Source: Oryzomonas sp.
GTDB lineage: Bacteria; Desulfobacterota; Desulfuromonadia; Geobacterales; Pseudopelobacteraceae
Assembly: GCA_031292255.1 (NCBI GenBank)
Contig: JARLHN010000038.1
Span: forward strand, 49,324-113,323
Reading direction: 5' to 3'
Length of the DNA: 64,000 nt
The position numbers were made by a program, and so were the translations under genes. Position 1 is the first letter of the stretch. Each line of letters opens with the position of its first letter. The notes under the pieces were generated by a model, which did no database searches, was not told the origin of the DNA, and saw only the letters and a program-made list of their open reading frames with translations. Below are positions 6,647 to 17,280 of this stretch, piece after piece.

Positions 6647-6859
6647 TTACAAAATGGGATATGCCTGTTGATCTGCAAAAGCAGATTCCATCTGGGTCTT
6701 GAAGTTCCTCAAGTCGCTGAGCGCAGCCGAGTTGAAGCCCTTGATGCGATATGCGGAGAACTGCGGGATGGCTACGGCGGCCAGGATACCGATGATCGCA
6801 ACAACGATCAGCAGCTCGATCAACGTAAAACCTTTTCTGCTACGAAGTTTGTTAAGCAT
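6647..6859 (-). CDS. pilA: Short type IV pilin PilA (PilA-N)
   Basis: The 70-residue prepilin has a ten-residue leader with basic residues ending in Gly, then mature FTLIELLIVVAIIGILAAVA, including the conserved Phe1 and Glu5. The mature protein is 60 residues, the truncated form typical of Geobacter. Aromatic residues fall at mature positions 1, 24, 27, 32, 43, 51 and 57. PilD would cleave and N-methylate it; PilB and PilC would assemble it, although none of these is in the window. The start at 6859 has a good site (GAAAGGAG) 6 bases upstream. A sigma-54 promoter lies about 75 bases upstream, and pilR is two genes away, so PilR-dependent control is expected. The pilA-C-like gene follows in the same operon. 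Confidence 0.95.
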   Translation of the reverse strand: MLNKLRSRKGFTLIELLIVVAIIGILAAVAIPQFSAYRIKGFNSAALSDLRNFKTQMESAFADQQAYPIL

Positions 6860-6934
6860 GTTTTTCTCCTTTCGTTGTGTATGCCTTCCAGAGGCAAAAA
6901 TAAAAAAAGCATTAACTCTATATAATCAAACCAG

Positions 6935-7338: not shown

Positions 7339-8703
<1,365 letters not shown>

Positions 8704-12350: not shown

Positions 12351-13709
<1,359 letters not shown>

Positions 13710-13740
13710 GGGACTATAACCCAAAGAAAGACCTGAGTCC

Positions 13741-13836
13741 AATTCCCCCTTTTGACAAAGAGGGGGGATTTGCTTCGAGTGATGCAAATCCCCCGCGATT
13801 CCATTTAGGCCCCAGCGGGTCCTTTTTAAAGGGGGA
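13741..13836. repeat. C/G-rich palindromic intergenic repeat
   Basis: Several hairpins are nested: CCCCCTTTTGACAAAGAGGGG (13745-13765) and GGGGGATTTGC/GCAAATCCCCC (13763-13773 with 13784-13794, a perfect 11-bp stem), ending with TTTTTAAAGGGGGAAG that mirrors the left end. The same style of repeat recurs at 59565 and 63432. It may act as a transcript 3' end for enolase, but there is no T-tract. Confidence 0.6.
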
Positions 13837-13901
13837 AGACAACAGTACCTTTATTATGGTTATAGTTCCGAAAAATAGATGCTGATGGATCATGAACCAG
13901 C

Positions 13902-13930
13902 TTGAAATTTTGGCTGAACAATGGTATTTT
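13902..13930 (+). promoter_or_regulatory. Sigma-70-type promoter of the fluoride operon
   Basis: TTGAAA (13902-13907) and TATTTT (13925-13930) are separated by 17 bases. The predicted start of transcription, near 13937, coincides with the first bases of the fluoride riboswitch, which supports the call. Confidence 0.6.
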
Positions 13931-13937
13931 TTTTAAA

Positions 13938-13993
13938 ATCCGACGGCGATGGAGTTCGCCATAACCGCTTGCCGACAAGCTGATGACTCCTGC
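13938..13993 (+). ncRNA. Fluoride riboswitch (crcB motif)
   Basis: The stretch contains the conserved parts of the crcB motif in order: GGCGATGGAGTTCGCC forming the first helix and loop, AACCGC, and the hallmark GCTGATGACTCCTGC that forms the pseudoknotted 3' side. The aptamer binds fluoride through Mg2+ ions. Its 3' strand ACTCCTGC also forms one arm of the terminator at 13986-14021, so ligand binding should block the terminator and switch on the genes downstream, including the crcB channel gene. Confidence 0.95.
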
Positions 13994-14021
13994 TCTTCAA
14001 AACCGAGGGCAGGAGTTTTTT
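13986..14021 (+). terminator. Riboswitch expression-platform terminator
   Basis: ACTCCTGC (13986-13993) pairs with GCAGGAGT (14009-14016) and is followed by TTTTTT. The left arm overlaps the end of the fluoride aptamer, so the two structures exclude each other; this is a transcriptional ON switch by fluoride. Confidence 0.92.
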
Positions 14022-14143
14022 CATTTTTCACGGTGAAACATCAGCAGGTTCGAAATGTCAAATGACGCCCATAAAAGGAGCCTTGCCATGACGTTCCGCA
14101 CCATTGTGCAATGCTTAAGCAAACCATATCTGGAGGAGTCGGT

Positions 14144-14614
14144 ATGCTGTCTATTGATATCCCCGGTTTCGGATCCCTGGAGCTGGAACACCTTGTCTGC
14201 GACTTCACCGGCACCCTCTCCGTCGATGGCAGTTTGCTTCCCGGCGTCGGCGCGCTTCTCGATGAGCTTGCCGCATCGCTTAAAATCCACGTGGTAACGG
14301 CCGATACCTTTGGCCGGGCGCACGAGGAGTTGGCCGGACGCCCCTGCACGTTGACCGTTCTGAGCGGGCAAAACCTGGACGTGCAAAAAGAACGGTTTGT
14401 CATGGCCCTGGATAAGGATCGGGTTGTTGCTGTCGGCAACGGCGCCAATGACCGGTGCATGCTGAGAGTGTCGAAGCTCGCAATCGCCGTGGCCGAAGGT
14501 GAAGGATGCGCTTTGGACGCATTGCTGAACGCCGACATTCTTGTGCGCAGCATCCACGAGGGATTGTCGCTGCTACTCAACCAGAAACGCATCGTCGCGA
14601 CCCTGAAGGTATAG
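14144..14614 (+). CDS. Small HAD-superfamily protein, soluble P-type-ATPase-like
   Basis: The ATG at 14144 has GGAGGAG at good distance and is preferred over the in-frame ATG at 14111. The 156-residue protein carries motif I as CDFTGTL (Asp20, with Thr where most HAD phosphatases have Asp, as in P-type ATPases), motif II VTADTF near 51-56 and motif III/IV VGNGANDRCML at 97-107. There is no membrane segment. Such lone HAD proteins are called soluble P-type ATPases (COG4087-like); their substrate is unknown. It is the first gene behind the fluoride riboswitch, so expression should rise with fluoride. The absence of the second motif-I Asp argues against an ordinary phosphomonoesterase. Confidence 0.85.
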   Translation: MLSIDIPGFGSLELEHLVCDFTGTLSVDGSLLPGVGALLDELAASLKIHVVTADTFGRAHEELAGRPCTLTVLSGQNLDVQKERFVMALDKDRVVAVGNGANDRCMLRVSKLAIAVAEGEGCALDALLNADILVRSIHEGLSLLLNQKRIVATLKV

Positions 14615-14705
14615 GTTCCGGCCGTGAAAGACTTGGGAACCCTTGCAACAATGGTGACACCGACGGAATGCCCGCTATAATTTTCATGCAAGGAGAATAT
14701 TTCAG

Positions 14706-15095
14706 ATGAAGACCGCGTCTACGATTGCCATCTTCTGTGCCGGCGGCGGGCTTACCCGCTACTATCTTTCGGGTTGGATCTACAGCCAGCTTGGCCGGGC
14801 CTTCCCTTACGGCACCTTTGCCGTCAACATCATCGGTGCCTATTTCATCGGCCTGGTCATGGAATTGAGTCTGCGCAGTACCTCCATCTCCGACACGATG
14901 CGCTTGGGGCTTACCGTCGGCTTCATGGGAGGGCTGACGACCTTTTCCACCTTCAGCTATGAGACTTTCAAACTACTTGAGGAGGGGCAATTTATTGTTG
15001 CATTCACCAACGTCCTGGCAAGCGTGGCAGTCTGTCTACTGTTCACCTGGCTGGGAATAATTACTGTTCGAGCGATGATCCAAGGAGGGGTGTGA
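14706..15095 (+). CDS. crcB: Fluoride ion channel CrcB/Fluc
   Basis: This 129-residue protein with four membrane spans has all the family marks: GGLTRY at 14-19, FPYGTFAVNIIG at 33-44 with the pore Asn41, and GGLTTFSTF at 75-83 with the fluoride-coordinating Phe80 and Phe83. Fluc channels are dual-topology dimers that let fluoride leave the cytoplasm. It is the second gene of the riboswitch-controlled operon, has AAGGAGAATATTTCAG before the start, and its stop overlaps the start of the DUF190 gene. Confidence 0.96.
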   Translation: MKTASTIAIFCAGGGLTRYYLSGWIYSQLGRAFPYGTFAVNIIGAYFIGLVMELSLRSTSISDTMRLGLTVGFMGGLTTFSTFSYETFKLLEEGQFIVAFTNVLASVAVCLLFTWLGIITVRAMIQGGV

Positions 15096-15448
15096 TGACA
15101 AAAATGATTGGTGAAAAAGTTCTGATGCGGATATTTATCGGCGAGCAAGACCGTTTCCACCACAGACCGCTTTATGAAGCACTGGTGGAGTTGTTCCAGA
15201 AGGAAGGCTTCGCCGGCGCCACCGTTCTGCGCTGCCTGAGCGGATTCGGCGCCCACAGCGTCTACCACACCCAGAATCTGTTGGATATCTCCGCCGGCCT
15301 TCCCATGATCGTTGAGGTGGTCGACTCCCAGGAAAAGATCGATGCCATCATGCCCCGCATCGACGAGATGATGGCCGGCGGCATGATAACCCTGGAAAAA
15401 GCCACCGTGATTCGCTACACATCAAGTTCCTCTCCGGCACCAGGGTAA
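15095..15448 (+). CDS. DUF190 family protein
   Basis: The ATG at 15095 overlaps the crcB stop (TGATG) and follows GGAGGGG by 5-6 bases; a GTG at 15092 in the same frame is an alternative. The 117-residue protein is soluble and matches the small DUF190 family (GEQDRFHHRPLYEALVELFQKEGFAGATVLRCLSGFG; later PMIVEVVDSQEKIDAIMP). DUF190 folds resemble PII-like/ferredoxin-like regulators and are often found beside crcB, suggesting that the protein modulates the channel or senses a ligand. The exact role is unknown. Confidence 0.9.
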   Translation: MTKMIGEKVLMRIFIGEQDRFHHRPLYEALVELFQKEGFAGATVLRCLSGFGAHSVYHTQNLLDISAGLPMIVEVVDSQEKIDAIMPRIDEMMAGGMITLEKATVIRYTSSSSPAPG

Positions 15449-15567
15449 GACCTTTTTCCGTAAATGGTTGATTGGTTCGGTCGCAAAAAGGGTTATGAGC
15501 TATGCCTATTGATCGGTACCTATTGTAACGCCGGTTTTATAACTTGTGCGGTTAAAAGGAGGAAGGT

Positions 15568-16854
15568 ATGTCACGAATAGAAAAGATTGAGGCCATGGAG
15601 ATTCTTGATTCGCGCGGCAACCCAACCGTGCGGGTTTCCGTCACCACGGAAAGCGGTGTAGTCGGAACCGCTGCCGTCCCTTCCGGCGCGTCCACCGGTG
15701 AGCGTGAGGCTTGCGAACTGCGGGACAATGACCCGAAGCGCTTCAAGGGCAAGGGCGTTCTGAAGGCGTGCGGCAATGTGGGCGGAGAGATTCGGGATGC
15801 ATTGCAGGGAATGGACTGCCGTGATCAGGGGCTTATCGATAAGACAATGTTGGAGCTGGATGGAACCAAGAATAAGGAACAGCTCGGCGCCAACGCGATA
15901 CTCGGTGTTTCGCTGGCGGCGCTCGACGCCGGCGCCCGCTGTTCCGATCTTTCTATTTATCGCTACCTGGGCGGTGCAGGAGCCGATCTCTTGCCGGTGC
16001 CGATGCTGAACATCCTCAACGGCGGCGCACATGCAGACAACAACGTTGACTTCCAGGAGTACATGCTCGTACCGGCCGGTTTGCCTACGTTTGCCGAGGC
16101 AATGCGCTGTGCCGCCGAGGTTTACCAGACCTTGAAGGGGCTCTTGCACAAGAATGGCAGCTCAACGGCGATTGGGGATGAGGGTGGTTTCGCCCCTAAC
16201 CTTGCGGACAACGAGGAACCGCTCAAACTGATCATCGAGGCAGTGGAGAAGGCAGGCTACCGGCCGGGCGAAGATGTCTTCATCGCCATCGATCTGGCGG
16301 CCAGCAACTTTTGCACTGAAGGGAAATACAACCTGGGGTCAATCGGAGAACCACTCTCGTCCAACGACCTTATAGGCTACCTGGAACGTCTTGTTGCCGA
16401 CTATCCGATCATCTGCATCGAAGACGGCCTGGATGAAAACGACTGGGCCGGTTGGCCTGCGCTCCATTCCCGGCTCGGCGGGAAGATCCAGATCACCGCC
16501 GACGATCTAACCGTCACCAATACGGAACTCATCAATCGGGGCATCAGTGAGCACTGTTTCAACTCGGTGCTCATCAAGTTGAACCAGATCGGCAGCGTAA
16601 CCGAGACCTTGGCCGCCATCGAGATGACCCAAAAGGCGGGATTCACCGCAATGGTTTCCCACCGCAGCGGTGAAACCGAAGATACCACCATCGCCGATCT
16701 CTGTGTGGGGAGGTTGACCGGCATGATCAAGACAGGGGCGCCCTGCCGTTCTGAACGGCTGGCCAAATACAACCGCCTGCTGCAGATTGAGAGGGAACTG
16801 GGCAAAGCAGCCCGTTATGCTGGAAAAGGGGCATATTGCAGCATTGGGAGGTAG
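15568..16854 (+). CDS. eno: Second enolase, in the fluoride-controlled operon
   Basis: At 428 residues this is a complete enolase: [58 protein letters not shown] and [11 protein letters not shown] with His365 and Lys388. It differs clearly from the first copy (for example an [15 protein letters not shown]-terminus and [18 protein letters not shown] near the end), so it is a paralogue and not a recent duplicate. Enolase is the main metabolic target of fluoride, and enolase genes are known members of fluoride-riboswitch regulons. The gene follows DUF190 by 119 bases, has AAAAGGAGGAAGG before its start, and I saw no separate promoter or riboswitch in that gap. It may be less fluoride-sensitive or simply raise enzyme dose. 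Confidence 0.95.
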
Positions 16855-16886
16855 ATTTTTTAACCCATGCCGGGAGAAACAACCAT

Positions 16887-17237
16887 ATGAGCACAATCCT
16901 TTTGCTGGTTATGTCGAATGTCTTCATGACCTTTGCCTGGTACGGTCATTTGAAATACGGTCATGACTGGCCTCTCTGGAAAGCGATTCTGGTCTCGTGG
17001 GGGATTGCGCTGCTCGAATACTGTCTGGCGGTGCCGGCGAATCGCCTTGGCTATGGCGAGTTCTCAGGGTTTCAACTCAAGATTATTCAAGAGGTCGTCA
17101 CTCTCGTCGTCTTCATCGTATTCGCGATCACGTTTTTGAAGGAGAAACTCGCCTGGAATCATTTTGTCGCCGTTGTTTTCCTTGCATTCGCAGCTTTTTT
17201 CACTTTTGCGTTCAAAGCACCCGGACACTCTGTCTGA
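16887..17237 (+). CDS. DUF486 small multidrug-transporter-like membrane protein
   Basis: The ATG at 16887 follows CGGGAG and gives 116 residues with four predicted membrane spans, matching DUF486 (DMT-superfamily-like; MSNVFMTFAWYGHLKY and LEYCLAVPANRLGY...FSGFQLKIIQEVVTLVVF). The gene begins 32 bases after the second enolase, so it is the probable last gene of the fluoride operon. DUF486 function is unknown; in this context a role in ion stress is an inference. Confidence 0.85.
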   Translation: MSTILLLVMSNVFMTFAWYGHLKYGHDWPLWKAILVSWGIALLEYCLAVPANRLGYGEFSGFQLKIIQEVVTLVVFIVFAITFLKEKLAWNHFVAVVFLAFAAFFTFAFKAPGHSV

Positions 17238-17280
17238 TTTTTTTGAATATGTGCCCGGTGCCGGATTTTCGTTCCCGGAT

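Follow-up and report, generated by a model that had tools for sequence, protein, structure and literature searches.

The stretch of DNA analyzed here, referred to as the window, comprises 64,000 nucleotides of Oryzomonas sp. Its features between the housekeeping enolase gene and hrpB, with positions numbered from the start of the window, are as follows.

12420-13709, + strand: eno1, housekeeping enolase, a flanking gene outside the cassette (TIGR01060, 711.5 bits)
13711-17249: inserted cassette, approximate extent about 3.5 kb (blastn alignment with the empty site of G118, locus L178)
13902-13930, + strand: promoter-like site of the riboswitch transcript (TTGAAA-17-TATTTT, 9/12 consensus; weak alone)
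13936-13999, + strand: fluoride riboswitch aptamer (RF01734, 59.3 bits, E 6.7e-14)
13985-14017, + strand: intrinsic terminator of the expression platform (13 pairs and a T tract; -20 kcal/mol, z -4.56)
14144-14614, + strand: HAD-fold protein with resemblance to P-type ATPase P domains (DFTGT as motif I)
14654-14681, + strand: promoter-like element between the riboswitch terminator and crcB (GTGACA-16-TATAAT, 11/12; predicted by sequence match)
14706-15095, + strand: crcB, Fluc fluoride channel (PF02537, 99.1 bits, cut-off 32.9; TIGR00494, 96.2 bits, cut-off 80.45)
15092-15448, + strand: DUF190, PII-like (PF02641, 125.7 bits)
15568-16854, + strand: eno2, accessory enolase (TIGR01060, 608.5 bits, cut-off 300)
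16887-17237, + strand: DUF486 / DMT_6 small protein (PF04342, 150 bits)
17222-17236, + strand: possible terminator of the unit (a 6-pair stem with 3 G-C pairs, and a T tract; weak, several expected by chance in the region)

The first-pass annotation of this DNA had described a riboswitch with its own promoter and terminator followed by a HAD-like gene, crcB, DUF190, eno2 and DUF486. Both the arrangement on one strand and the gene order were confirmed, the promoter-like site matching the consensus at only 9/12 positions. The HAD-like ORF was listed from 14111; a Shine-Dalgarno sequence instead precedes the ATG at 14144. Its product scored 20.7 bits against Pfam Hydrolase_3, just below the cut-off of 20.9, and matched the P domain of a P-type ATPase (PDB 2voy_I, E 3.4e-4).

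The cassette sits between eno1 and hrpB. In blastn comparison with the empty site of the genus mate G118, matches to the window stopped at 13710 and restarted at 17250. The eno1 genes of five genus mates were 94-97% identical to that of the window, with the same upstream transporter genes alongside. The eno1-hrpB junction was bare in G118, held a remnant of eno2 in G116 and contained other sequence in three. The fluoride-resistance cassette thus looks mobile. Two enolases, eno1 and eno2, were found in the genome, and they do lie within 4 kb of each other as had been pointed out; their closeness is, however, an effect of the insertion site, because the cassette was inserted at a junction that is bare or otherwise occupied in genus mates.

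The riboswitch and a promoter-like element before crcB

The aptamer covered model positions 1-64, the full length of RF01734, scored well above the gathering score of 34, and was the sole Rfam match at gathering score in the 64-kb window. No second fluoride riboswitch was found in the genome assembly searched (88% complete). The 3' end of the aptamer is overlapped by the 5' arm of the terminator, which links the expression platform to the aptamer. Fluoride binding and gene switching are predicted from this arrangement.

A sigma-70-like element, TGACA-N16-TATAAT, was located between the riboswitch terminator and crcB and is conserved, with the same spacer and in the same place, in several relatives. 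It had been overlooked in the first-pass annotation. A scan of 39 stretches on both strands, 596 kb in all, gave 10 occurrences of the pattern TGACA-N16-TATA[AC]T, eight of them directly upstream of crcB. All five genus mates retained the 16-base spacer, with the element at -81 in G118 and at -51 or -52 in the other four. Because the element follows the terminator, some expression of crcB, DUF190 and eno2 is probably independent of fluoride. The proposed fluoride cassette, linked to a riboswitch and including an accessory enolase, was supported; control of the whole unit by the riboswitch alone, with no promoter after the terminator, was not supported.

Given the internal promoter, much of the crcB-eno2 expression may be independent of fluoride. 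At the extreme, the riboswitch would in effect govern the HAD gene alone, and crcB, DUF190, eno2 and DUF486 would be transcribed mainly from the internal promoter at any fluoride level. Such a division would fit the better match of the element to the consensus (11/12 against 9/12 for the riboswitch promoter), its preference for crcB and its retained spacer. In all five genus mates, however, crcB is the first gene after the riboswitch and the element lies between both, so that a dominant internal promoter would make the riboswitch pointless. Moreover, the site was absent from 8 of 20 crcB upstream regions and located elsewhere in one (L147), and in G067 eno2 lies directly behind a riboswitch. 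We regard so limited a role for the riboswitch as rather unlikely.

A strong promoter at 15449-15567, directly before eno2, had been named beforehand as an argument against riboswitch control of this gene. No promoter-like site of at least 9/12 was present there in the window, where a looser scan gave 8/12 as the best site. The looser scan gave sites of 9-10/12 directly upstream of eno2 in three relatives, at differing positions. A promoter directly before eno2 was rejected, since the seven upstream regions of eno2 shared no site.

The eno2 lineage and its residues

The eno2 protein is 58% identical to eno1 and was predicted to fold with a pLDDT of 92.7 (AlphaFold2 model). The eno2 clade consists of six intact copies that share 88-94% identity and are linked to fluoride cassettes. 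This clade is under purifying selection; dN/dS was 0.04-0.128 (15 pairs), similar to the 0.03-0.121 of eno1 (15 pairs). Of seven eno2 loci, one of them a remnant, four (the window, G116, G072 and G067) have eno2 co-directional behind a riboswitch. Riboswitch, crcB and eno2 occur together in the window, G116 and G072, with eno2 placed between riboswitch and crcB in G072; in G067, eno2 is 159 bp behind its own riboswitch. At L005 and G021 the riboswitch is less than 7 kb away on the downstream side, and in G086 eno2 is on a contig stretch without a riboswitch, one being present on another contig of the genome. Among 141 genomes of the order, which we take to be Geobacterales, only five carried an intact eno2, and eno2 has decayed in G116; this rarity and decay indicate that the gene is dispensable.

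Enolase matches were present in 22 of 80 riboswitch neighborhoods of the phylum, presumably Desulfobacterota, among the matches listed. These neighborhoods (L190-L269, from 76 genomes) represent the better-scoring riboswitches among the matches listed, and many of the stretches stop at contig ends. In 15 of the 22 the enolase is co-directional and downstream of the riboswitch; L204 and L221 contain just enolase fragments, the enolase of L206, L207 and L212 is divergent, and that of L227 and L248 lies upstream of the riboswitch. On a 72-row tree, the label of riboswitch neighbor (31 rows against 41 others) required five changes, all five forced by supported branches. Enolase recruitment to riboswitch neighborhoods therefore looks repeated, as judged from a tree whose rows were picked by similarity or riboswitch neighborhood, so that the label counts describe that sample. 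L282 (X) and the partial L289, L290 and L291 were removed before tree building, and near-identical rows were also thinned from a 118-row tree; the 72-row tree does not include the riboswitch-free clade-A enolases.

These distributions bear on whether eno2 and DUF486 are simply passengers with no role in fluoride resistance. The decay of eno2 in G116 is compatible with this, as is the distribution of DUF486, which in four of five genus mates is not part of a fluoride locus among those fetched and was matched only in the window and L070 among 131 loci compared. The open-licence literature searched contained no report of DUF486 with fluoride. Against this, eno2 accompanies riboswitches in several genera with changed gene orders and under purifying selection, and enolases of other lineages recur in riboswitch neighborhoods. 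It is highly improbable that both genes are passengers.

Enolase is the enzyme of sugar breakdown that fluoride poisons, and the first-pass annotation had raised the question of whether eno2 is fluoride-tolerant. Twelve catalytic and metal residues, which we take to be S39, H159, E168, E211, D246, E295, D320, K345, H373, R374, S375 and K396 in yeast numbering, were placed by motif. All 12 were identical in eno2, in 31/31 riboswitch-linked or riboswitch-neighboring enolases and in 108/108 comparison enolases. No altered fluoride, Mg or phosphate residue was thus found among them, the candidate changes being the second-shell C283 and T310. The active site gave tolerance no support, and active-site tolerance was rejected as the main reading; with the catalytic residues unchanged, an extra dose of enzyme is likelier than an altered active site.

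Second-shell changes by the Mg sites could still weaken Mg-fluoride-phosphate binding, so that eno2 would work when eno1 fails. C283 and T310 are among the residues present in all six eno2 copies and in none of the nine nearest relatives. Each stands two residues before a metal ligand (E285 and D312), in strands predicted at 281-285 and 308-311. Comparison enolases have S or T at column 283 (107/108) and V at column 310 (107/108). Column 283 is also altered, to L or V, in 5/5 members of clade B, another riboswitch-neighbor clade, whose changes showed a nominal enrichment close to catalytic residues (Fisher p 0.024 without correction for the 21 clades). The changes of the eno2 clade, however, were not so enriched (Fisher p 0.24). 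Of 219 columns, the two clades overlap at four (p 0.0067 without correction for the 210 clade pairs), but three of these four (300, 362 and 386) are common to Desulfofervidaceae enolases too; these enolases, whose searched stretches contained no fluoride riboswitch, themselves reach p 0.053. An L at column 283 also occurs in a plasmid enolase of Acidithiobacillus, for which a search of 11.65 kb gave no riboswitch. Convergent second-shell evolution of the eno2 clade and clade B was discarded, as it does not stand out against 16 other enolase clades. A fluoride-tolerant eno2 is in our estimation unlikely. No report of a "fluoride-resistant enolase", or of a "second enolase" together with crcB, was found in the open-licence literature searched.

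The subunit interface was considered at positions R8, E20, R414 and E417, presumably in yeast enolase numbering. These are M, R, Q and R in all six eno2 copies (M10, R22, Q406 and R409 in eno2's own numbering), against R, E, R and D in eno1. Comparison enolases have E at E20 in 101/108 and R or K at R414 in 95/108. A mixed eno1/eno2 dimer would place R opposite R twice, and the altered interface might thereby keep eno2 from pairing with fluoride-inhibited eno1. A passage of PMC9452966 lists both E20 and R414 as residues of the homodimer. Among 11 two-enolase genomes examined, a charge-reversed copy was paired with a canonical one in five, whereas both copies kept E20 and R414 in six. The reversed pair was also found in 30/30 clade-A-type enolases fetched. 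G480, G496 and G185, of this type, have one enolase match each and no riboswitch among the matches listed, so the swap is independent of a fluoride link there. Riboswitch-free relatives of eno2, too, are already A20/E414 or E20/E414. As a fluoride adaptation the barrier to mixing looked strong at first (5/11) and was weakened by the same swap in the clade-A-type enolases; we think it quite improbable. Less probable still is a fluoride-stress isoenzyme combining these features, in which the interface would block mixing with inhibited eno1, C283 and T310 would lower sensitivity, and a basal crcB promoter would be boosted through the riboswitch.

Proposed mechanism and known systems

The reading favored here, with moderate confidence, is a mobile cassette in the eno1-hrpB gap that is expressed by riboswitch read-through and from a second promoter, eno2 contributing added dose and not tolerance. 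A horizontally moving fluoride-resistance cassette would have landed in this gap. In the absence of fluoride, the riboswitch transcript would stop at the overlapping terminator. With fluoride present, the aptamer would stay folded and the terminator be blocked, so that transcription would reach the HAD gene, crcB, DUF190, eno2 and DUF486 as one unit. The second promoter, directly before crcB, would provide a fluoride-independent level of crcB, DUF190 and eno2. Fluoride would exit through CrcB, and eno2 would supply more enolase whose active site is ordinary, allowing glycolysis or gluconeogenesis to continue while part of the pool is inhibited. Activity of either promoter, co-transcription, the response to fluoride and the dose effect are all predictions of this scheme.

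The riboswitch's own promoter, at only 9/12, is a weak point of the mechanism. As eno2 is only 58% identical to eno1 and no recent duplicate, pure dose also leaves the retention of a divergent lineage unexplained.

An ordinary and a cassette enolase stand side by side in one genome here, and the cassette copy is present in some relatives, absent from others and lost in others again, so that this natural pair allows three effects to be tested: dose, tolerance and the mixing of dimers. The conserved promoter-like element is, in addition, a caution against assuming that genes downstream of a fluoride riboswitch are silent when fluoride is absent.

A set of genes associated with fluoride riboswitches was reportedly described by Baker et al. 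in 2012. Enolase beside such riboswitches is already published and common, and the window is a fresh example of a recognized type. According to the available part of one review, enolase is often found in riboswitch operons, exporters, HAD proteins and enolase are riboswitch-associated, and some bacteria counter inhibition by more enzyme (PMC11139923, which cites the 2012 study as its reference 67). That part makes no mention of the eno2 lineage, the interface and second-shell residues, or the internal promoter. On more versus different enolase against fluoride, results in S. mutans are inconsistent according to the accessible portion of another review (PMC5508371).

In Enterobacter cloacae FRM, as described in the text available, a riboswitch operon of ppaC, uspA, eno, gpmA, crcB and orf5249 lies on a genomic island, and the enolase transcript rose about 177-fold with fluoride (PMC5533749). 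The cassette has in common with the operon so described that a single unit combines a fluoride riboswitch, crcB and an additional enolase. It differs in carrying HAD, DUF190 and DUF486 genes where the FRM operon has ppaC, uspA and gpmA, and in the promoter-like element that lies between its riboswitch and crcB; the likeness was judged by gene content. Plasmid loci of Methylocella tundrae, Rahnella aquatilis, Pseudomonas orientalis, Sinorhizobium sp. M14 and Methylocystis sp. MJC1 likewise have a riboswitch near an enolase and also carry crcB, a CLC-type channel, DUF190 or a pyrophosphatase. Their enolases fall in clades A and B of the tree, unlike eno2.

Anatomy of the cassette and its insertion site

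The features of the region are as follows.
12420-13709, plus strand: eno1, the ordinary housekeeping enolase, upstream of the riboswitch unit
13936-13999: fluoride riboswitch (RF01734), full length, 59.3 bits
13985-14017: strong terminator (-20 kcal/mol, z -4.56), its 5' arm overlapping the 3' end of the aptamer
14144-14614, plus strand: small HAD-fold protein
14654-14681: promoter-like site
15568-16854, plus strand: eno2, the second (cassette) enolase
16887-17237, plus strand: DUF486 protein

The riboswitch was the only fluoride riboswitch found in its genome, and is followed on one strand by genes for the HAD-fold protein, CrcB, DUF190, eno2 and DUF486. The gene set and order given in the first-pass annotation were upheld, while its HAD start was corrected to the ATG at 14144, which is preceded by a Shine-Dalgarno sequence. 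No enolase other than eno1 and eno2 was found in the genome; the two are 58% identical. Motif I of P-type ATPases is DKTGT; the HAD protein has the similar DFTGT, lacks the second Asp of phosphatases, and may be a soluble P-domain-like protein. DUF486 was present as a single copy elsewhere in the genome in four of five genus mates (G114-G118), and a partial match was seen in a Chloracidobacterium riboswitch locus (L070, 452-574, minus strand) beyond CrcB and three DUF190 matches.

In the five genus mates eno1 is preceded by the same transporter genes. In G118 hrpB directly follows eno1, and the match of the window to this empty site ends at 13710 and restarts at 17250. In G116 the gap between eno1 and hrpB is occupied by a riboswitch, crcB and DUF190, followed by an eno2 that breaks off after its first 167 residues. 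Searches with 12 proteins of the window gave no match in the gap of G114, G115 and G117 (~5.5 kb). The empty site and the partly filled gap indicate that the cassette was inserted next to eno1, so that the closeness of both enolases is a matter of site. The cassette is well-formed and apparently mobile. The G116 remnant (L142, 4374-4880) resembles natural decay of a spare enolase.

The eno2 lineage and cassette expression

Enolase matches were found in 134 of 141 genomes of the order, and intact eno2-type copies in five (the window's own genome G000, G086, G072, G021 and G067; 89-100% identical to eno2). A sixth was found in the named genome collection (L005, whose record has Deltaproteobacteria in its title but carries the label Myxococcota); L004 and L006-L008 appear to duplicate contigs of four G genomes. 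The six copies group together as a single clade (100/100), whose sister group is the enolases of Candidatus Desulfofervidaceae (95/95), around which Rfam gave a cobalamin riboswitch and no fluoride riboswitch. The dN/dS values of eno2 (0.04-0.128, 15 pairs) and eno1 (0.03-0.121) were much alike.

At four of seven loci, remnant included, eno2 is co-directional behind a riboswitch with differing gene orders: straight behind it (159 bp) in G067, after an MFS transporter gene in G072, and after crcB-DUF190 in G000 and G116. In L005 and G021 a riboswitch lies downstream within 7 kb; for G086 the contig stretch that was read showed none, and the genome has one on another contig. Of the sequence evidence, this shuffled gene order with constant riboswitch company speaks most strongly for eno2 belonging to the fluoride response. 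Fluoride-riboswitch or eno2 loci of relatives (L144, L145, L147, L143, L149, L005) also held PAP2 phosphatases, MFS transporters, a CLC-type channel and dynamin-like GTPases.

The best promoter-like site of the region, GTGACA-16-TATAAT, lies after the terminator and before crcB and matches 11 of 12 consensus hexamer positions, against only 9 for the riboswitch's own site. No 11-of-12 site turned up in 60 Markov-shuffled 7-kb sequences (one strand). Among 20 crcB upstream regions the element occurred at 10-11 of 12 in eight, 48-52 bp before the crcB start in seven (window, G116, G114, G115, G117, G066, G138) and 81 bp before it in G118. Three regions (G127, G067 C149, G135) had a weaker element (8-9 of 12) in the same position, one (G021 C82) had a 9-of-12 site elsewhere, and eight had none. 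Across 39 stretches totalling 596 kb, searched on both strands, the pattern TGACA-N16-TATA[AC]T had 10 occurrences: eight before crcB and two (L143, L170) before another gene in fluoride loci. Since the searched stretches were mostly picked for riboswitches, the constant position is the telling point. The likeliest design, judged from these sites, is one in which the promoter before crcB would supply a basal level of crcB, DUF190 and eno2, to which fluoride-gated read-through from the riboswitch would add. In the stretches L142, L154-L158 and L161 of relatives the conserved element lies between the fluoride riboswitch terminator and crcB. In L170 (near 7551) and L143 (near 9199, minus strand) the pattern precedes a gene whose protein has MTCVAKGPNHG near its start; it directly follows a fluoride riboswitch in L170, and in L143 it lies within an eno2/HAD locus, where the frame of that gene looks interrupted.

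Catalytic residues and the dimer interface

The proposal that the spare enolase is fluoride-tolerant found no first-shell support. The 12 catalytic/ligand residues checked, named in yeast enolase numbering, were identical in 31/31 riboswitch-linked or -neighbouring enolases and 108/108 comparison enolases. This speaks against a first-shell solution and in favour of a larger amount of enzyme. At conserved columns, changes present in all six eno2 and none of nine nearest relatives were M10, R22, C68, Q187, C283, T310 and M362; C283 and T310, both within predicted strands, each precede a metal ligand by two residues. In a comparison over 21 clades, changes near catalytic residues were not enriched in the eno2 clade (p 0.24), nominally enriched in clade B, another clade with riboswitch-neighbour members (p 0.024, uncorrected), and almost nominally so in the riboswitch-free Desulfofervidaceae (p 0.053), to which the overlap between the eno2 clade and clade B is mostly common too. 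C283 and T310 would be worth keeping as mutagenesis targets, no more; the eno1/eno2 pair is well suited as a test system.

E20 and R414 are named as enolase homodimer residues in a part of PMC9452966. The corresponding eno2 residues are R22 and Q406, with M10/R409 as the neighbouring pair (6/6 eno2). As read from these residues, the eno2 interface is different from that of eno1, and mixed eno1-eno2 dimers look unfavourable. In five of 11 two-enolase genomes examined, the riboswitch-neighbour copy was charge-reversed and the housekeeping copy canonical; the other six lacked this pairing. All 30 clade-A-type enolases fetched had the salt bridge the other way round, with R/K at E20 and E at R414; clade A is another clade with riboswitch-neighbour members. 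Three genomes (G480, G496, G185) have one enolase match each, of this clade-A R/K-E form, and no fluoride riboswitch among the matches listed for the phylum sample; fluoride selection for the interface change is therefore unsupported. The reversed-bridge lineage is widespread in the phylum (e.g. L281, L296, L300-L329).

Enolases beside fluoride riboswitches

Fluoride riboswitch matches (E 0.001 or better) were found in at least 163 of 395 phylum-sample genomes. An enolase match lay within ~8 kb in 22 of the 80 neighbourhoods fetched around better-scoring riboswitches (15 co-directional and downstream by positions); by our estimate chance would place one in ~1% or fewer of random 16-kb stretches. 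For several genomes (e.g. G341, one contig, C1:3034183-3035427) the single enolase match is the riboswitch neighbour itself, so not all such enolases are spares. Enolase fragments were seen beside fluoride riboswitches of two other genomes, in L204 (near 7764-7925) and L221 (near 6691-6924), as if decayed former spares. Ten plasmid enolase loci were fetched and six searched: all five chosen by their neighbouring genes had a fluoride riboswitch, and the Acidithiobacillus locus had none in 11.65 kb. In a 72-row tree, riboswitch-neighbour rows (31) and others (41) required five label changes, all forced by supported branches; in this sample enolase thus entered riboswitch neighbourhoods several times.

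The FRM operon of E. cloacae, in the section of PMC5533749 that describes it, is a published fluoride-riboswitch operon with an enolase, and a passage of PMC11139923 states that enolase is often found in riboswitch operons. An enolase beside a fluoride riboswitch is an already known kind, of which the window cassette is a further member.
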